From Candidatus Thiodiazotropha sp. (ex Epidulcina cf. delphinae) (GTDB taxonomy: Bacteria; Pseudomonadota; Gammaproteobacteria; Chromatiales; Chromatiaceae), in assembly GCA_025656505.1 (NCBI GenBank), contig JAHXHR010000001.1, positions 1 to 33,719 on the forward strand: a DNA stretch of 33,719 nt, in the 5' to 3' direction. This document shows, in pieces, positions 15,341-23,273 of the stretch. A program made the translations under genes and the position numbers. Position 1 is the first letter of the stretch. Each line of letters opens with the position of its first letter. A model generated the notes under the pieces. It saw only the letters and a list, made by a program, of their open reading frames with translations. It ran no database searches and was not told the DNA's origin.

Positions 15341-16633
15341 ATGAAGCTACCCTATCCCGAGAGGCTCCAGGGGTTGATCCTTCAGGCTGGATTGGATCGA
15401 TTGCCGGCAAAGCCGCTAAAATTCCTTGCCGAGCAGGCGGTTCGCTTTCGTTTTACCTCACAAGAGTTGCGCCAGTTGGGCGACATGGCGCTTGATCTGC
15501 AGATGTGGGGCGAATCGACCATCGAGACGCTCTGGCCCGTACAAGAGTGGGACGGGCTTTCCCATAAACAGCGTCGTCAGCGCATTTTGGCGCAGATCAG
15601 CGCCCAGTGGAGGCAGCTCAAATTATCGCCCAACCACTATCCTCAACGCTTTGCCGGAAAGGGTTTTTCGCCGCAACGGATCAAAAGGCTTACCATTGAG
15701 CGAGATAAGCTCGGGCTCGGTGTTTGTCCGGTGGCTTCCCCGCAGACTCGATGCTGTAATCTGCTGACTTTGGATGCGGTGGAGAATTGCGGTTTCGATT
15801 GCAGCTATTGCAGTATCCAATCCTTTTATCATGGTGATGAGGTGCGTTTCGACAGTGGCTTTGGCGAAAAGCTGGCCCGGCTCGAGATCGATCCCGACAG
15901 GTTCTACCATATCGGCACCGGCCAATCCTCCGACTCCCTGATGTGGGGTAATCAGGCCGGGATACTGGAGGCCCTGCTTGAGTTCGCCCGGCGCCATCCG
16001 AACGTTATCCTCGAACTCAAGACAAAATCCAAGAACATCAGTTATCTGCTGAAGACGAATGTGCCGCCGAATCTCCTCTGCACCTGGTCGCTTAACACCC
16101 CGACCCTGATCGCAAACGAAGAGCACCTGACCGCGTCGCTGGATGAGCGGTTGCGATCAGCGCGCCGGCTCGCTGATCGCGGGGTATTGGTGGGTTTTCA
16201 TTTTCATCCTATGATCCACTACGATTATTGGCGGGAGGATTACGGTTTGCTGTTTCAACGTTTGCTGCGGGAGTTCACGGCCGACGAAATCGTCCTGGTG
16301 TCGTTTGGCACGCTGACCTATATCAAGCCCGTGATCAAGCAGTTGCGATCCCGCAAGGATTTTCACAGCAAGATCCTGCAGATGCCGCTGGTCGAGTGCG
16401 ATGGCAAGCTTTCCTACCCACAGACGATCAAACAGGAGATGTTCAGTTTCGCCTACCGCTCATTGCAGGCTTGGCATGACAAGGTCTTTTTCTATCTATG
16501 CATGGAGAATCAGCGTCTTTGGCAGCCGGTGTTCGGTTACGAATATCCATCTAACCGGGCCTTTGAAGCAGCCATGCAGCAAGCCTATTCAGACAAGATC
16601 CGCCGGCGAAGAAGAGATGGATATGGATCATGA
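15341..16633 (+). CDS. Spore photoproduct lyase family radical SAM protein
   Basis: A 430-residue radical SAM protein. The cluster motif is CGFDCSYC (CX3CX2C) in DAVENCGFDCSYCSIQSFY. Downstream segments GVLVGFHFHPMIHYDYWREDYGLLF and the SSDSLMWG stretch align with the spore photoproduct lyase (SplB) fold. By my alignment from memory, the SplB hydrogen-donor cysteine (Cys141 of Bacillus, in SCTSD) corresponds to GQSSD here, so the cysteine is missing and true photoproduct repair is doubtful. The host would not form spores in any case. A 150-residue N-terminal extension is not found in SplB. ATG 15341 is chosen for the AGGA upstream and the conserved start; an ATG at 15272 lacks support. The product is likely cytoplasmic; substrate unknown. 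Confidence 0.8.
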   Translation: MKLPYPERLQGLILQAGLDRLPAKPLKFLAEQAVRFRFTSQELRQLGDMALDLQMWGESTIETLWPVQEWDGLSHKQRRQRILAQISAQWRQLKLSPNHYPQRFAGKGFSPQRIKRLTIERDKLGLGVCPVASPQTRCCNLLTLDAVENCGFDCSYCSIQSFYHGDEVRFDSGFGEKLARLEIDPDRFYHIGTGQSSDSLMWGNQAGILEALLEFARRHPNVILELKTKSKNISYLLKTNVPPNLLCTWSLNTPTLIANEEHLTASLDERLRSARRLADRGVLVGFHFHPMIHYDYWREDYGLLFQRLLREFTADEIVLVSFGTLTYIKPVIKQLRSRKDFHSKILQMPLVECDGKLSYPQTIKQEMFSFAYRSLQAWHDKVFFYLCMENQRLWQPVFGYEYPSNRAFEAAMQQAYSDKIRRRRRDGYGS

Positions 16634-16932
16634 CCGACAGTGGTGGAGAGCCACTGGGGATGATCGCCATTGTCTCCCTGATGGCCTGGGGATTGGGCTA
16701 TTTCGGACAGCCCCACATCCTGGCTCGTTTCAAGGCGGTCAGGGATGCGGGTTTCGTCCCCAAGGTTGGGCGAATCGCCATGAGTTGGGTATTTGTCAGT
16801 CTCACTGCCGCCTGTCTGGTGGGGTTGGTAGGGATTCTGATTTTCGAGACCTCGTTAGGGGATGCGGAAAAGGTCTTTATCCGTCCGGTGATGCTCCATG
16901 GTCATTTTGTGCGCACGCCAATATTTTTCCAA
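16630..16932 (+). pseudogene. putP: Truncated sodium/proline symporter PutP (SSS family)
   Basis: The frame opens at an ATG overlapping the stop of the previous gene by four bases and at once reads IAIVSLMAWGLGYFGQPHILARF, the middle of PutP (about residue 230 of 500). It goes on through a further helix to DAEKVFI, then loses similarity. Both the first half and the last third of the transporter are missing. Family similarity ends just before a dispersed repeat begins at 16933. The open frame runs on to 16995 through the repeat, but that tail is not PutP. It is a gene remnant left by deletion and repeat insertion and cannot make a transporter. Confidence 0.75.
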
Positions 16933-16987
16933 CTCAAGTTTCGGCGCTCAAATTTAACTCGTTCCCATGTTCTATGTGGGAACGCAT
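16933..16987 (+). repeat. Third copy of the CTCAAGTTTCGG repeat
   Basis: The stretch begins CTCAAGTTTCGGCGCTC and continues with a palindrome CGTTCCCAT/ATGTGGGAACG (about 16959-16984). It matches the right arm of the element at 92-328 in reverse orientation (CTCAAGTTTCGGAGTTC, then a similar CTCGTTTCCGTGTTCTATG). It sits exactly where putP similarity is lost. Confidence 0.6.
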
Positions 16988-16993
16988 TATCCT

Positions 16994-17018
16994 AAAAACC
17001 GCAGTGGGACGGGGTGAA
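16994..17018 (+). repeat. Solo left end of the AAAACCGCAG repeat family
   Basis: The sequence AAAAACCGCAGTGGGACGGG and the following GTGAA match the left end of the 282-base element at 26905, with one base changed and one A more. No right end is seen within 300 bases. It directly follows the CTCAAGTTTCGG repeat, so two repeat families abut here. Confidence 0.55.
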
Positions 17019-17435: not shown

Positions 17436-17759
17436 ATGTTGAAACGATCGAAAGCTGCGATCCGGCAGTGGTTTTCTCCTGATCAGGCCGCCCAAGCCCG
17501 GGAAGACGACAAGGTCTGTTCGGTAAGGCGCGGTTTTTTCAAGAGGGCGGCCGTTGCCGCCGTCTCCGTTGCCGGCACCGCAGGGTTGGCGAAAATAGTG
17601 GTTGATTCATCCCCTCAGCCCAAGTTGCAAGACAAATACGCCAAGGATCACCTGGCCGGCGAGCAGGAATTGATGGAGTGGGAGTATGTGTTGATGTCTG
17701 AGCGGGAGAAGGCTGACATGGTGCAAGCGTTCATCGACAACTACTCCGATCAGGTCTGA
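17436..17759 (+). CDS. Small Tat-targeted protein of the electron-transfer operon
   Basis: A 107-residue protein with a twin-arginine signal after a long n-region: VRRGFFKRAAVAAVSVAGTAG at about 30-50. The short mature part ends in LMSEREKADMVQAFIDNYSD (86-105). That segment mirrors LMTDEEKKEAVTRLEHRYSE at 62-81 of the next gene product, which also follows a Tat signal, so the two look related. It has no metal-binding motif; Cys28 is its only cysteine. It recalls the small Tat proteins encoded near formate dehydrogenases, but I cannot assign it to a named family. It may be an accessory subunit of the complex below. ATG 17436 is chosen over TTG 17430 because GAGGAGGGG lies just upstream. Confidence 0.75.
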   Translation: MLKRSKAAIRQWFSPDQAAQAREDDKVCSVRRGFFKRAAVAAVSVAGTAGLAKIVVDSSPQPKLQDKYAKDHLAGEQELMEWEYVLMSEREKADMVQAFIDNYSDQV

Positions 17760-17911
17760 TTAGGCTTGTTGGCGGAACTGGCTTGGTTGTTCAGGGCCGA
17801 TAGTGGGGGCTTTGCTGAATGGCTGATCGCTCCAGTGGCAGCCGCATGCTTGTCTCGACCACCGTTTAGCTGTCCCATTTTATTCGATTGCCAATCGACT
17901 AGAGGATAGAT

Positions 17912-18943
17912 ATGTCAAAAGAAGAGACCAAAGTGAAGGGGCCGAACGGCACCTCCCGTCGTGATTTCCTGCGTAAGGCGGGCAGTTACACGGCGGCATC
18001 GCTCTCCGGGACGGCCATGCTGCTCTCCGATCCCAAACCGGCTAAGGCGACGGCCAACGTTTCCTGGGCCGAGCATTTTCAGAAAAACTATCGCCTGATG
18101 ACGGATGAGGAAAAAAAGGAAGCGGTCACGCGACTAGAGCATCGCTATTCAGAGGAGTTCGGAAAAAAGGTCGAAGTTGATGATGCGCCGGCGATGGACG
18201 GGGTTCTGTTCGGTTATGCGCTCAATATCCAAAAGTGCATCGGATGCCGCCGTTGCGTCAAGGCCTGTGTTGCCGAAAACAATCAGTCCCGGGGGGAGAA
18301 TCAGCAGATCGAATGGATTCGTGTGTTGCGTATGGAAAAGGGCAAGTTCTCGGCAGAGGACAGGGACCGGCAGGGCTATCCCGAGGATTATGGCGTTCAG
18401 GTCGGCGGCAATGCCTATAAACCCGCAGGTGTTGTGCTGGAGGGTCAGCACTACTACGAACCCGACCTGGTTCCGGAAAAAGATGCCTTTTATCTGCCCA
18501 TGCAGTGCATGCAGTGCGAGAAACCTCCCTGCGTCAAGGTCTGTCCGGTCCGAACCACCTACCGTGATCCCGATGGCATTGTCGTCATTGACTACAACTG
18601 GTGTATCGGCTGCCGCATGTGCATCGGCGCCTGCCCCTACTGGGCGCGGCGTTTCAACTGGGGGGAGCCTGATCTTCCGGCGCAGGAGATGAACCCGGAC
18701 ACCCATTATCTGGGTAACCGTCCGCGCATGAAAGGTGTGGTCGAGAAGTGCACATTCTGTGTTCAGCGCACCAGAAAGGGCCGTTGGACCGCCTGTGTCG
18801 AGGTCTGTCCGGTGGGCGCCAGAAAGATGGGTAACCTGTTGGACCCCGAAAGCGACGTTCGCAAGGTATTGGCAAGCAAAAAGGTGTTCCGTTTGCGCGC
18901 GGACTTGAATACCTATCCAAAGTTTTTCTACTTCATGGAATAA
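17912..18943 (+). CDS. Tat-exported [4Fe-4S] ferredoxin subunit (NrfC/DsrO/HmcB-like)
   Basis: A 343-residue electron-transfer subunit. The Tat signal SRRDFLRKAG (15-24) implies folded export to the periplasm. Sixteen cysteines form four [4Fe-4S] sites: 109/112/115/119, 199/202/207/211, 231/234/237/241 and 280/283/295/299, including CIGCRRCVKAC and CIGCRMCIGACPYWARRF. This is the layout of DmsB/NrfC/PsrB/DsrO proteins, which carry electrons between a periplasmic partner and a membrane quinone subunit. The partner NrfD-type gene follows after 11 bases. The segment 62-84 before the first cluster is shared with the upstream small protein. No catalytic molybdopterin subunit is encoded nearby. GAGGATAGAT precedes the start. 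Confidence 0.9.
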   Translation: MSKEETKVKGPNGTSRRDFLRKAGSYTAASLSGTAMLLSDPKPAKATANVSWAEHFQKNYRLMTDEEKKEAVTRLEHRYSEEFGKKVEVDDAPAMDGVLFGYALNIQKCIGCRRCVKACVAENNQSRGENQQIEWIRVLRMEKGKFSAEDRDRQGYPEDYGVQVGGNAYKPAGVVLEGQHYYEPDLVPEKDAFYLPMQCMQCEKPPCVKVCPVRTTYRDPDGIVVIDYNWCIGCRMCIGACPYWARRFNWGEPDLPAQEMNPDTHYLGNRPRMKGVVEKCTFCVQRTRKGRWTACVEVCPVGARKMGNLLDPESDVRKVLASKKVFRLRADLNTYPKFFYFME

Positions 18944-18954
18944 GGGGCTGTCTC

Positions 18955-20211
18955 ATGAAACGCTTTATCCAATTCGTAATCGATTTTCTGCGCAGTGGTT
19001 TCACCGGGGGCGTTTTGTTCTGGGCCTGGATGCTGTTCCTCTCTTTTTTTATCATGCTCTGGGGTTATGGCGAATTTGTCCAAATCAGAGACGGCATGAT
19101 CGTCACGGGCCTGAACGACCAGGTCAGTTGGGGATTCTACCTGGCCAATTTTGTCTTTATGGTCGGTGTGGCCGCCGCCGCAGTGACCGTGGTCTTTCCC
19201 GCCTATGTGTATAAGCACCGTGAGCTGCATCGGATTGTGGTGCTTGGGGAGATGTTGGCGATTGCCGCCGTCATTATGTGTCTGCTCTTCGTCACCGCCC
19301 ACATGGGCCGGCCTGACAGACTCTGGCATATCTTTCCGGTGATCGGTATCTTCAACTGGCCTCACGCCATGCTGACCTGGGATGTGCTCGTGCTCACCGG
19401 CTATCTGCTATTGAATATCGTCGGTGGTTTCTATTTCCTCTACAAGAAATATTCAGATGCCGAACTGAATAAGGCATTTTATCTGTCAGTGGTCTATATC
19501 GCTATCGTCTGGGCCTTGAGTATCCATACGGTGACGGCCTTTTTGATCAATACCATGCCGGCGCGCCCGATGTGGTTTCATTCGATGATGCCGATCAAGT
19601 TCATTACGACCGCCTTTGCCGCCGGTCCCTCGTTGATTATTATCGTCTTCCTGCTGGTGCGTCGGTTTACACCGTTAAAGATTGCCGATGAGGCCTTTCA
19701 CGTGTTATCCCAGATTGTTGTCTGGTGTCTCGGCATTGCCTTGTTCCTGACCCTGTCGGAGATCGTCACCGAACTCTATCCCAGCACCGAGCACTCCCTG
19801 GGGCTTCAATATCTGATGTTCGGTCACCACGGGTTGAATTCGCTGGTTCCGTTCTTTTGGACCGCTATGGTGTTGATGATCGGCGGCTTCATTTTATTGC
19901 TGATCCCTAAGGTCAGAAAGAACCTGATGGCCCTGCCCTTTATTTGCATCGCGGTTTTTATCGGCATCTATATCGAAAAAGGCGTGGGTCTGATGTTGCC
20001 GGGTGTTACACCGACACCGATTGGTGAATTTGCCGAATACACGCCGAGCAGCATTGAATTCATGGTTGTCGGCGGTATCTGGGCCATTGGTTTTTTCATT
20101 CTGACCGTGCTTATCAAAGGCGCGAGCGGCGTTCTGCTGAGTGAAGTTCGTTACACAGAGAAAGCGAGCCCGTCGATTCGGGGTGAACAGACAAGACCGG
20201 CAACGATCTGA
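18955..20211 (+). CDS. NrfD/DsrP/HmcC-type quinone-binding membrane subunit
   Basis: A 418-residue integral membrane protein with about ten transmembrane helices, longer than the eight-helix NrfD/PsrC forms and like the DsrP/HmcC branch. Typical segments are GLNDQVSWGFYLANFVFMVG near helix 2, HMGRPDRLWHIFPVIGIFNW between helices 3 and 4, and WALSIHTVTAFLI in helix 5. In this family it exchanges electrons between the quinone pool and the periplasmic iron-sulfur subunit, without haem of its own. It follows the ferredoxin gene closely and precedes the tetrahaem cytochrome, so the three probably form one membrane complex. Direction of electron flow cannot be read from sequence. Confidence 0.9.
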   Translation: MKRFIQFVIDFLRSGFTGGVLFWAWMLFLSFFIMLWGYGEFVQIRDGMIVTGLNDQVSWGFYLANFVFMVGVAAAAVTVVFPAYVYKHRELHRIVVLGEMLAIAAVIMCLLFVTAHMGRPDRLWHIFPVIGIFNWPHAMLTWDVLVLTGYLLLNIVGGFYFLYKKYSDAELNKAFYLSVVYIAIVWALSIHTVTAFLINTMPARPMWFHSMMPIKFITTAFAAGPSLIIIVFLLVRRFTPLKIADEAFHVLSQIVVWCLGIALFLTLSEIVTELYPSTEHSLGLQYLMFGHHGLNSLVPFFWTAMVLMIGGFILLLIPKVRKNLMALPFICIAVFIGIYIEKGVGLMLPGVTPTPIGEFAEYTPSSIEFMVVGGIWAIGFFILTVLIKGASGVLLSEVRYTEKASPSIRGEQTRPATI

Positions 20212-20263
20212 ACACAATACTTGGTAATTACGCGGATTTCACTGATTTCAGGAGAGAAAAACA

Positions 20264-21064
20264 ATGACTATCTATCATCTGTTCGGACCGGTTATCAGCT
20301 TGTGCCTGTTGGCGGCTGCGTCGGTTGCTTCTGCTGCCGGGGATACAGTCCGGAAAGATGAAAAAACGTGTTTTGAGAGCAGAAAGGGACTGAGCCAAGT
20401 CAGGAAACACGAGATCGAACCCGGCGTGATGAACGTGAAGTGTTCACCGATCACGGGGGGCGTTCTGTTCTGGGGCGATCCCTTCGACGGGACCATACCG
20501 ATGGGCGATATGCCGGTGGAAGCGGACTACTCGCATGAAGAGGCGGTGGTAAAGCCGCGTGAGCCGCAAATCGATCGCAACAAACTGCTGACGATTTGTG
20601 CCATGGCCTGTCATAATGGTGAGTATGTTCCCTATCCTGAAAACAAGCTCGCCCGGCCGCTGAGGATGCATAAGGATATCGTACCGGACTCGATGCAACT
20701 GAAACATGGCAAAGGGGCGATTTGGTGTCTGGACTGCCACCACGCCGTCACCCGAACCAAGCTGATCGATCATTATGGTAATGAAGTCAGCTTTAATCAG
20801 TCGCAGAAGCTGTGTGGAAAGTGTCATGGGCAAGTCTATCGGTCTTGGCGTAACGGCATCCACGGCAAGCGTATCGGTATGTGGCGGAAAGGTGGGAAGA
20901 AGCGTTGGTGGACCTGCACCGAATGCCATAATCCGCACGATGTGGAGCAGGGCGGGAGAAATTCAGGGTTTGCCCAACTTAACCCGGAGCCGGCGCCGAT
21001 GCTGCCGAAAGGAATGAGCAATGCGGACCATGAACGTGGTCACGGAGAGGAGCATGGGCGCTAG
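20264..21064 (+). CDS. Periplasmic tetrahaem cytochrome c with one CX3CH site
   Basis: A 266-residue protein with a Sec signal peptide (about 1-25, ISLCLLAAASVASA). Four haem sites are visible: CAMACH at 112-117 with three residues between the cysteines, then CLDCH (155-159), CGKCH (184-188) and CTECH (218-222). Two more cysteines (36 and 60) precede the haems and could be axial ligands or a disulfide. The C-terminus is His-rich. It is presumably the periplasmic partner of the FeS/NrfD pair, as DsrJ is in DsrMKJOP, but DsrJ has three haems and no clear similarity is evident. It is not NrfA: no CXXCK site. GGAGAG precedes the start. Confidence 0.88.
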   Translation: MTIYHLFGPVISLCLLAAASVASAAGDTVRKDEKTCFESRKGLSQVRKHEIEPGVMNVKCSPITGGVLFWGDPFDGTIPMGDMPVEADYSHEEAVVKPREPQIDRNKLLTICAMACHNGEYVPYPENKLARPLRMHKDIVPDSMQLKHGKGAIWCLDCHHAVTRTKLIDHYGNEVSFNQSQKLCGKCHGQVYRSWRNGIHGKRIGMWRKGGKKRWWTCTECHNPHDVEQGGRNSGFAQLNPEPAPMLPKGMSNADHERGHGEEHGR

Positions 21065-21170
21065 TGTAGGAGACTAGACTGTACTGGTGTGTGTTCAGTC
21101 CGTTGAATCAATAAGAGATAAAAAGGGATGGGCCGATGATTGTAGCAACCGTATTGTGCGGAGGAGCACC

Positions 21171-21917
21171 ATGACGAGTTTTCAAACAAAAGAAGACACC
21201 AGGCGGGAGGCGTTCGAGACCATCTGGGAGTCCAAAATCAATGCAGTGTTTGCGGATGTTGCCGCAGCCTATGACAAGGCCAACGATTTCGCCAGCCTGG
21301 GAATGCTGAAGGGGCTGCGTCGCCGCTTCATAGCCAGCATCGATGTTGAACCGGGCCAGCGGGTGCTTGATGTCTGTGCCGGAACCAATGTCGTTGGTAT
21401 CGAGTTACTGAAGAAGCAGCCGGAGCTTGATGTCTATGCTGTCGATCGCAGTGACGCAATGCAACGGGTCGGCAAGGAGCGGGCCACGCAACAGGGTTTT
21501 GATATCAAGGGCCGCATCTGCGATGTGCATCAATTGCCATTTCCTGACAATCATTTCGATGTGGTGACCCTGCAGTACGCGACGCGGCACTTGCGGGTCA
21601 TTGATGTTTTCTCGGAGATCAATCGGGTGCTGAAGCCGGGCGGCAAGTTTTATCATTTCGATATGCTGCGACCAGCCAATAAGCTTGTCGAAGAGGTTTA
21701 CTGCCTCTATCTGAAAGGTTGTCTCACGGCGATCTCCTGGGCCATTCGCTCCGGACCCGACGCCATGGCCTGCCACAGCTATTTTGTCGATGCCATACGG
21801 CTGTTCTATTCAACGGACGAGCTTTCCCGTCTACTTTCGGAATTGGGTTTCGACGGTGTTACCGGCCGGTCGCTGCTAGGCGGAACCGTTGCTATTCACG
21901 AGGCATGCAAGGCATAG
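21171..21917 (+). CDS. UbiE/MenG-like SAM-dependent methyltransferase
   Basis: A 248-residue class I methyltransferase. The SAM-binding motif is VLDVCAGTNVVGIELL (about 63-78), followed by VYAVDRSDAM, the acidic loop ICDVHQLPFPDNHFDVV and NRVLKPGGKFYHFDMLRP, which is the UbiE/MenG layout. The UbiE segment that normally reads GLRN is ATRHL here, and motif I is altered, so it is a paralog rather than the housekeeping quinone methylase. Encoded between two cytochromes of a quinone-linked complex, it may modify a dedicated quinone; that is an inference. ATG 21171 is chosen for its GGAGGAGC ribosome site; the GTG at 21087 has no support. Confidence 0.82.
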   Translation: MTSFQTKEDTRREAFETIWESKINAVFADVAAAYDKANDFASLGMLKGLRRRFIASIDVEPGQRVLDVCAGTNVVGIELLKKQPELDVYAVDRSDAMQRVGKERATQQGFDIKGRICDVHQLPFPDNHFDVVTLQYATRHLRVIDVFSEINRVLKPGGKFYHFDMLRPANKLVEEVYCLYLKGCLTAISWAIRSGPDAMACHSYFVDAIRLFYSTDELSRLLSELGFDGVTGRSLLGGTVAIHEACKA

Positions 21918-21981
21918 GCGAGAGGTAGCGCACGCACCTTATATCAATATCTGTCCGGCCTTACCATCGAGGATTCACACA

Positions 21982-22308
21982 ATGACGACTTACAAGTCGC
22001 TGATCATAGCCATTGGCGCCATCACCGCTTCAATGCCGGTCCATTCGGAACAGGCGCTCGATGCCGAAGGGCTGTATAAGGAACGGGCCTGTATCGCTTG
22101 CCATGGTGCGGAAGGCAAGATGCCTGTGATGACGGAGTATCCGAAAATCGCGGGGCAGCCCGCCCCCTATATACTGGCGCAGATGAAGGATATCAAAAGC
22201 GGTGTGCGCAATAATGCCCATGCGGTGGCGATGAAAAACGCGATGCATCTGATCAATGATGCAGAGATGGCCGTCATCGCCGAATGGCTCGCCGGCTTGC
22301 CGAAATAG
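21982..22308 (+). CDS. Class I cytochrome c (c4/c5/c553 type)
   Basis: A 108-residue periplasmic monohaem cytochrome. The signal peptide is about 1-23 (SLIIAIGAITASMPVHS). The haem site is CIACHG at about 37-42, with EYPKIAGQPAPYILAQMKDI and a methionine-rich AVAMKNAMHLI that likely supplies the axial Met, and a C-terminal helix AVIAEWLAGLPK. This resembles one half of cytochrome c4. It is a good candidate for the soluble electron carrier of the operon. ATG 21982 follows GAGGATT. A hairpin spans the stop. Confidence 0.87.
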   Translation: MTTYKSLIIAIGAITASMPVHSEQALDAEGLYKERACIACHGAEGKMPVMTEYPKIAGQPAPYILAQMKDIKSGVRNNAHAVAMKNAMHLINDAEMAVIAEWLAGLPK

Positions 22309-22335: not shown

Positions 22336-22794
22336 TCAGCCGCTCCAGAGGGCGTCGGTCAGAGCGACGATCTGTGCATAGTAGACCTCCCGGTCCAGAT
22401 CCAGGGCGGTGGAAGCGAAGAGTTCTGCGTCGTCTGCGGTTGCCAGGTCCCCATAGTTGACCAGCACCGACTGATAGAGGATCAATGCCGGCAGCACTTC
22501 AGGGTGGTTCTCAAAGTGCTGATGCAGAGAGATCACATAGCCATCATCCGGGTTATCCGAGACCGGCGCTGTTTTGCCGAATAGGCCGGGTTCAATGCCA
22601 TCGGAGACAAAGCGGATCTCGACCGGGTGGCGAATACATTTTCTGTCCTTGAGCATCTGCAGCAAGGCGGGGTAGTCGATGACGGGGCCGTAGCGGGCGC
22701 GGATCTGTTTCGCCTTCTCAATCGCATGCGTGGAGACAGCGCTGTGAATCGCTTTGCCGGCGCGCTTTCTAACCTTGTTTATTTTTTGTTCCAT
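22336..22794 (-). CDS. Unrecognised 152-residue protein
   Basis: I do not recognise this protein. It is soluble, with a basic N-terminus (KINKVRKRAGKAIHSAVSTH) and an acidic second half containing DNPDDGYVISLHQHFENHPEVLPALILYQSVLVNYGD. No signal peptide, metal-binding motif or membrane helix is seen. The frame is open over its full length with normal codon use, and it is convergent with the cytochrome gene and divergent from the next small gene. It is probably a real gene, perhaps lineage-specific. Confidence 0.65.
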   Translation of the reverse strand: MEQKINKVRKRAGKAIHSAVSTHAIEKAKQIRARYGPVIDYPALLQMLKDRKCIRHPVEIRFVSDGIEPGLFGKTAPVSDNPDDGYVISLHQHFENHPEVLPALILYQSVLVNYGDLATADDAELFASTALDLDREVYYAQIVALTDALWSG

Positions 22795-22886: not shown

Positions 22887-23273
22887 ATGCCGGAATATCG
22901 ACTGAAATTTACTGAGAACAGCGAGGAAACCGAGCAAGAGGATGAGTCGAGACAGCGCACCCTTGATGAGCTCAACGCCTTCGTCGAAACAATGGACGCC
23001 CGCCCCCTTGCGATTGTTACCCTGGATAAGGAACAGAGCGCGCTATGGGATCAGGAGGGTGATACCGACTACCAGGACGCCTACGGACGACAGATCATCG
23101 GGCAGGTCAGCGATGGCGTCACTGAGACGCTGGTTATCCGTAATTGCGAAGGGCTTCCTGTCGCTTTGGCAGCCCGGAATGGAGATGCCGGATGGCAAGG
23201 CATCGGCATCGATAAGCGGCTGCGCTTCGAGATCGCCACAGCCCTGCACAACGATGAAACTGAGTTTGAATAA
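22887..23273 (+). CDS. Unrecognised 128-residue acidic protein
   Basis: I do not recognise this protein. It is small, acidic and without signal or membrane segments; it begins PEYRLKFTENSEETEQEDES and contains RPLAIVTLDKEQSALWDQEGD. A GAGGATACCG ribosome site precedes ATG 22887. It is divergent from the 152-residue gene with 92 bases between, so both promoters probably lie there. Its stop is followed within a few bases by a dispersed repeat. Confidence 0.6.
   Translation: MPEYRLKFTENSEETEQEDESRQRTLDELNAFVETMDARPLAIVTLDKEQSALWDQEGDTDYQDAYGRQIIGQVSDGVTETLVIRNCEGLPVALAARNGDAGWQGIGIDKRLRFEIATALHNDETEFE

Follow-up and report, generated by a model that had tools for sequence, protein, structure and literature searches.

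The closest described system to the locus examined here is the TMH1-DsrOhPh-tetrahaem locus of cable bacteria, whose role was left open (PMC13047784). As far as the available part of that paper goes, the locus is proposed to transfer electrons from the quinone pool to the periplasm and might, in its authors' view, carry electrons from the quinone pool towards the conductive fibres; it is expressed in Candidatus Electronema aureum, and related genes are reported from Gammaproteobacteria and Betaproteobacteria, including genomes without sulfur metabolism. The same locus was named pACIII, a candidate alternative complex III, in the accessible text of a second paper (PMC11976967), and DsrOP homologues are mentioned for Candidatus Electrothrix scaldis in that of a third (PMC10926707). 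Our subject was a locus of six open reading frames, all on the + strand, that spans positions 17436-22308 of a 33,719-nucleotide stretch of DNA (the window) from Candidatus Thiodiazotropha sp. (ex Epidulcina cf. delphinae). Bacteria of Candidatus Thiodiazotropha are chemosynthetic symbionts of lucinid clams. The genome that contains the window (G000) has 3.43 Mb and is 99.65% complete.

Like the cable-bacteria locus, the window locus has adjacent genes for a DsrO-like iron-sulfur (FeS) protein, a DsrP-like NrfD membrane protein, and a tetrahaem cytochrome, encodes a small one-helix protein, and lies apart from dsrMKJ; it differs in adding a UbiE-family methylase and a class I cytochrome. In addition, TMH1 is reported, in the available text, to be unique to cable bacteria (PMC13047784), whereas the small protein of the window has a twin-arginine motif and homologues in gammaproteobacterial and 'deltaproteobacterial' loci (29 of the 80 loci described below). 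None of the best 80 of 165 relatives of the tetrahaem cytochrome was named as a cable bacterium, and the likeness was drawn from the published description. We concluded that the window locus is most likely a member of the DsrOhPh-tetrahaem (pACIII) kind. A preliminary description, made by a model from the sequence alone, had matched the six genes to no named complex; because the locus already has names in the accessible parts of both papers (PMC13047784, PMC11976967), the window instead belongs to a named, functionally uncharacterised kind. For the methylase link, the NrfD-cytochrome fusions, and the DmsA-like operon and other molybdenum (Mo)-enzyme neighbours reported below, we met no prior description in the parts of the open-licence literature that were consulted.

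Alternative complex III (ActABCDEF) has an ActB protein with a Mo-like domain, two NrfD proteins, and a pentahaem ActA. It resembles the window locus in having an NrfD protein, FeS clusters, and multihaem and monohaem cytochromes, but the window has a single NrfD protein, no Mo-like ActB domain on the FeS part, and a tetrahaem rather than a pentahaem cytochrome; the ActB matches of the module cover only the FeS part of ActB. QrcABCD and the NapA- and DmsA-linked NrfD systems also contain an FeS/NrfD pair linked to multihaem cytochromes, whereas the window locus is without a Mo-type subunit. DsrMKJOP shares the DsrO- and DsrP-type subunits, the 16 cysteines, and the approximately ten helices, but the window locus lacks dsrM, dsrK, and dsrJ, its genome contains a separate dsr cluster, and its NrfD protein has His rather than Asp in transmembrane helix 2 (TMH2).

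Our reading is that the product of the locus is probably an electron-transfer module of the DsrOhPh-tetrahaem kind, working as a quinol:cytochrome c link and lacking its own catalytic subunit. In such a module, quinol would be bound by NrfD near the periplasmic face; the FeS protein would accept the electrons through its four clusters and deliver them to the tetrahaem cytochrome, from which they would pass to soluble carriers such as the neighbouring class I cytochrome. Various periplasmic enzymes could be joined to this chain, and in G000 an anchorless DmsA-like enzyme would be one candidate. Gene content, conservation, motifs, fusions, and neighbourhoods are observed, whereas electron direction, physical partners, the type of quinone, and a part of the methylase in tailoring it are inferences. 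The preliminary description had proposed a link between the quinone pool and soluble cytochromes, and our results support that proposal in the form of an electron-transfer module between the quinone pool and periplasmic cytochromes.

Gene order and conservation of the module

Open reading frames, profile searches, and counts of cysteines and helices agreed with the six same-strand genes and the families first assigned to them (Table 1). The gaps between the genes, given beforehand as 11-150 bases, were 152, 11, 52, 106, and 64 bases, so that the earlier range was right within two bases.

Table 1. Genes of the module and flanking open reading frames in the window
Feature	Position	Strand	Properties
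Small protein, 107 aa	17436..17759	+	Twin-arginine motif, one hydrophobic helix
DsrO-like FeS protein	17912..18943	+	Twin-arginine signal, 4Fe-4S dicluster families
DsrP-like NrfD membrane protein	18955..20211	+	PF03916, E 6.8e-33
Periplasmic tetrahaem cytochrome c, 266 aa	20264..21064	+	Cytochrome_C7, E 1.1e-5
UbiE-family methyltransferase paralogue	21171..21917	+	PF01209 (Ubie_methyltran), E 1.9e-35
Class I monohaem cytochrome c	21982..22308	+	PF00034 (Cytochrom_C), E 2.9e-8
Short open reading frame	16630-16995		Part of sodium:solute symporter family
First downstream protein	22336-22794	-	No Pfam match at E 0.1
Second downstream protein	22887-23273	+	No Pfam match at E 0.1

A survey of 194 genomes of the window's GTDB family found a full-length relative of the tetrahaem cytochrome in 17; the genus contributed 10 of these 17, from 12 genomes surveyed. 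Besides the window, 16 family neighbourhoods were available. The NrfD, tetrahaem cytochrome, and class I cytochrome genes occurred together in all 16, with the class I cytochrome on the opposite strand in L051; the FeS and small genes were present in 14, the remaining two loci being truncated by contig ends, and the methylase was present in 8. Because the arrangement recurs in these 16 relatives, we concluded that it did not arise by chance.

For a wider set, named genomes were scanned for relatives of the cytochrome, and the best 80 of 165 were kept. Within these 80, the nearest relatives were from Candidatus Thiodiazotropha (89% identity), and the hosts were Gammaproteobacteria, Betaproteobacteria (for example Rhodoferax, Propionivibrio, Azonexus, and Sulfuritalea), and metagenome-assembled genomes (MAGs) labeled 'Deltaproteobacteria'. 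In 76 of the 80 loci the cytochrome gene was immediately preceded by NrfD; in 3 the two formed a single reading frame, and in 1 NrfD was cut off. An FeS gene preceded NrfD in 72 loci, so that the core order FeS-NrfD-cytochrome held in these 72; the remaining 8 start at contig ends. The small protein was recognised in 29 loci and the methylase in 14. The class I cytochrome was recognised in 25 loci, with weak matches in two.

Two loci (L105 and L106) contained an in-frame fusion of NrfD with the cytochrome, in which the former signal peptide forms an additional helix between the two parts. The fusions argue that the two proteins belong to one complex, and the signal-derived helix would put the cytochrome on the opposite side of the membrane to the C-terminus of NrfD, consistent with a periplasmic location. 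A third candidate, L119:8762-10768 from Piscinibacter aquaticus, was not counted because its NrfD tail appears to read out of frame; this tail runs into the cytochrome gene, through either a real shift or a sequencing error.

Neither Pfam nor NCBIfam assigned the small protein to a family at E 0.001. By hydropathy it has one helix, and its sequence is weakly similar to that of the FeS protein in its N-terminal part. Another small protein, about 113 aa long (cluster F5; L109:10853-11215), was found in 24 of the 80 loci; its gene mostly follows directly on that of the cytochrome or stands ahead of the FeS gene in divergent orientation, and its L109 copy had no NCBIfam match. A gene that reads as TatA/TatB-like was located near the module in seven gammaproteobacterial loci (L080, L082, L086, L087, L088, L099, and L100).

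The methylase scored 148.6 bits with TIGR01934, below the curated cut-off of 158.35. Canonical UbiE is encoded by a separate gene elsewhere in G000 (277 bits), to which the methylase of the module is 31% identical. The methylase recurs, with 56-60% identity, in the distant gammaproteobacterial module loci L076, L079, L081, and L082 (in L082 on the other strand). Its family and its position lead us to guess that it may tailor the quinone used by the module.

Redox motifs of the core proteins

The FeS protein scored 187 bits with the DsrO model NF045797, below the cut-off of 200. Sixteen cysteines were conserved in all 71 aligned sequences, including the window, and also in the genome's own DsrO; this number would suffice to bind four 4Fe-4S clusters.

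Hydropathy predicts about ten helices for the NrfD protein. With the DsrP model NF045798, which represents sulfate reducers, it scored 353 bits, above the cut-off of 350, versus 57 bits for the genome's own DsrP. The protonatable residue of TMH2 was His in all 73 aligned sequences, the window included. According to the available text of PMC8076601, this residue is Asp in DsrP1 and DsrP2 and His in ActC, DmsC, NrfD, and SoeC. In a tree of 55 sequences, the window protein fell in a module clade with support of 94/91, just under the tool's star. Canonical reductive DsrP (100/100) formed a separate clade, as did a sister group, and the genome's own DsrP sat on a very long branch. The window protein was thus outside the canonical DsrP clade yet nearer to the reductive type.

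The window cytochrome has one CX3CH and three CXXCH motifs, and four haem motifs were present in all 80 relatives as well. The four proximal His residues plus H148, H200, and H225 were conserved in all 81 sequences. Position 136 was His in 61 of the 81, including the window (His136), and Met in 20; all 20 Met136 sequences carry betaproteobacterial names or come from betaproteobacterial families, and other betaproteobacterial loci (such as L092 and L109) retain His. Positions 136, 148, 200, and 225 are therefore candidates for the distal haem ligands, and a His/Met swap is what would be expected of such a ligand. With four haem motifs and four distal-ligand candidates, open haem sites are unlikely, and so is catalysis by the cytochrome itself. 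In the accessible part of the cable-bacteria paper, models of the tetrahaem protein have all four haems with His-His coordination (PMC13047784). A sequence search of the PDB with the window cytochrome returned NrfB only (E 0.0034).

Catalytic neighbours and cytochrome b among the carriers

Catalytic neighbours were sought with six queries in the 80 loci, within at most 10 kb per side and often less, and a Mo-enzyme match was found in only 9. The matches in L116 and L121 were just 29-30% identical and were rejected as partners. The absence of a catalytic gene beside the module, as first described for the window, was thus true of most loci.

Four Rhodocyclales loci (L108, L109, L110, and L123; Propionivibrio, Azonexus, Sulfuritalea, and a Rhodocyclaceae MAG) have the module within an operon-like run that encodes a multihaem protein, a DmsA-like Mo enzyme, DmsB, TorD, a histidine kinase, and a response regulator, with the module placed between the DmsA-DmsB-TorD set and the two-component system. 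The DmsA-like enzyme of L109 scored 617 bits with TIGR02166 (cut-off 778). The window genome encodes an orthologue of this enzyme (77%) with DmsB and TorD on contig C52; no anchor gene was found in the 12 kb seen there, which approaches the contig end, and the sole DmsC-family match of G000 lies in a different Mo-enzyme locus, on C49.

The DmsA-like enzyme was found in 52 of the 194 family genomes: 14 of the 17 module carriers and 38 of the 177 others (Fisher p 8e-7, not corrected for kinship). Outside the genus it was present in 4 of 7 carriers and 36 of 175 others (Fisher p 0.04, likewise uncorrected). The preliminary description had named a catalytic subunit co-conserved elsewhere in the genome as a finding that would refute it. 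An anchorless DmsA-like operon is indeed present and answers to this in part, but co-conservation is not strict, with the enzyme in 14 of 17 carriers in the family and 6 of 50 distant ones. We regard the DmsA-like enzyme as a plausible, unproven partner of the module in the window genome. A CXXCH motif is present in the N-terminal part of all 10 copies of the histidine kinase that lies between or beside the module and the DmsA-like operon (L064:8157-10025, L109:11216-13114, and relatives), which is a possible haem c sensor, judging by this motif. Several DmsA-like operons (L144, L145, L146, L151, L152, and L153) encode a Gly-Met-Ser-repeat protein.

Sister modules were surveyed in the phylum of the genome that carries L083, from which 20 regions were taken and typed by BLAST labels. 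Five were canonical dsr clusters, 4 were window-type loci (L203-L206), and 11 had a more distant NrfD (40-46% identity), accompanied by a weakly similar cytochrome in 10 of the 11. Four of these 11 lie beside a Mo enzyme: L193, L196, and L201 adjoin NapA-like enzymes, of which only that of L201 was above the NapA equivalog cut-off, and L197 adjoins a Mo enzyme of an untyped kind. L200 lies beside an ExtM-like 11-haem protein (215 bits, cut-off 800), and the window-type loci L205 and L206 lie beside Qrc/Phs-like Mo enzymes that scored below curated cut-offs.

A cytochrome b match (PF13631) over the cut-off was found in 59 of 67 module carriers; it was at least 119 bits in 54, weak in 5, and absent in 8. 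The window genome contains cytochrome b. In four 'Deltaproteobacteria' loci (L083, L089, L094, and L097), the module is followed by genes for Rieske protein, cytochrome b, and cytochrome c. The module therefore does not replace complex III in most carriers, including the window genome. In the carriers without a cytochrome b match, it may well be the sole quinol:cytochrome c route.

Alternative explanations and the direction of electron flow

Several other identities of the locus were weighed. The preliminary description had offered the tetrahaem protein itself as a terminal enzyme; it would then resemble MccA or a nitrite reductase. The lack of a catalytic gene in the locus and the likening of the cable-bacteria locus to the architecture of MccACD in the available text (PMC13047784) favor this idea, but four conserved haem motifs with four conserved His or His/Met distal candidates, together with the all-His-His published models from the same source, make it very improbable. 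That the module belongs to the Dsr complex, as a DsrOP half that has strayed or serves as a substitute, can be given almost no weight; the score over the cut-off of the DsrP model (that of DsrO being under its own) points toward it, and it is opposed by the genome's own dsr cluster on C17, which reads as DsrM, K, L, J, O, and P with distinct DsrO and DsrP and has dsrA over the cut-off on the same contig, by the position of NrfD outside the canonical DsrP clade, and by the invariant TMH2 His in place of the Asp of DsrP1 and DsrP2 (PMC8076601, available text). A true stand-in for complex III in carriers lacking cytochrome bc1, as the name pACIII implies, is somewhat less remote, although we doubt it. 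Among the 8 carriers without a PF13631 match are G016, estimated to be 100% complete, and the genomes of the two fusion loci (G223 and G224), and 5 more have weak matches; several of the match-free genomes, however, are MAGs of low or not known completeness, the module precedes the bc1 genes in four loci, and strong cytochrome b matches coexist with the module in 54 of 67 carriers and in the window genome, a further difference from alternative complex III.

The remaining alternatives accept an electron-transfer module and concern its partners and direction. The module might be the dedicated membrane anchor of the DmsA-like enzyme on C52, with electrons passing from quinol through NrfD, the FeS protein, and the cytochrome to the multihaem protein and the Mo enzyme. 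The shared operon of the four Rhodocyclales loci, the proximity of module and enzyme in the Thiodiazotropha loci L064 and L072, the lack of an anchor beside the G000 enzyme in the 12 kb covered, and the excess of the enzyme among family carriers all make this possible; we consider it less likely than not, since 38 family genomes have the enzyme without a full-length cytochrome, including G173 and G184 of the Thiodiazotropha genus, the association outside the genus is weak, and the enzyme is found in just 6 of 50 distant carriers. Flow in reverse, from periplasmic oxidations of sulfur compounds or soluble cytochromes into the quinone pool, as in QrcABCD with cytochrome c3, seems unlikely. Qrc, an NrfD-family complex, does run that way according to the text available (PMC13059093), and G000 itself carries dsrA and a dsr cluster, but sister modules adjoin NapA-like enzymes, the four Rhodocyclales loci adjoin the DmsA-like enzyme, and 34 of 67 carriers are without dsrA over the cut-off (four of these with fragments). 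With sister modules beside NapA-like enzymes and an ExtM-like protein, and the module inside a DmsA-like operon, flow from quinol to the periplasm is most likely, and the overall picture is that of a portable connection between quinones and the periplasm. The preliminary description had also seen a fit to electron disposal during sulfur oxidation; dsrA over the cut-off in only 33 of 67 carriers, with fragments in four more (G241, G212, G025, and G002), speaks against a specific tie to that metabolism.

Other points weigh against the quinol:cytochrome c module that we prefer. To our knowledge, there is no biochemistry for any member. The evidence on direction comes from the neighbours of sister modules, and in 6 of the 11 sister loci the queries matched no catalytic neighbour in the stretch fetched. 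Among the 50 distant carriers, 44 gave no DmsA-like enzyme, which leaves the module with no known partner of general occurrence. For the cytochrome, AlphaFold gave a weak model (mean pLDDT 63.9), and a fold search with it gave a single meaningless match (E 5.5). Position 138 of NrfD, the Ser of the quinone site, was Ser in 56 of 73 sequences and Ala in 17, among them the window; this Ser is considered important at the quinone site or its entrance in the accessible parts of PMC8076601 and, for QrcD, PMC13059093. In the available text of the cable-bacteria paper, the module proteins were undetected in proteomics of Desulfolithobacter dissulfuricans, and the authors state that biochemistry of DsrOhPh-tetrahaem is needed (PMC13047784). 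A link of Ala138 to the methylase was also considered. Ala occurred without the methylase in seven loci (L064, L065, L067-L070, and L072) and the methylase without Ala in three (L076, L081, and L082); because of these mismatches there is no strict link.

A broader form of the quinol:cytochrome c reading is speculative, and we lean against it: the module would be a portable quinol dehydrogenase common to anchorless periplasmic enzymes (DmsA-, NapA-, ExtM-, and Qrc/Phs-like), recruited by cable bacteria and animal symbionts, and in the Thiodiazotropha lineage would use a specially methylated quinone made by the UbiE paralogue of the operon. The relatives offer more tractable host groups (Azonexus, Sulfuritalea, and Propionivibrio) and a candidate partner enzyme. 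Together with the natural NrfD-cytochrome fusions and the linked methylase, they bring the function of the locus within reach of testing.

Outside the module, the window DNA upstream contains housekeeping genes, judged from their translations. Promoter-like sites (4, versus a shuffled mean of 4.2) and terminator-like sites (8, versus 5.7) were near the shuffled level. Just ahead of the module, the short open reading frame aligns with no more than a portion of its family (Table 1) and resembles a gene remnant. The two downstream proteins remain near the module in close relatives, in 23 and 22 of the 80 loci, respectively, and their orientation was variable.

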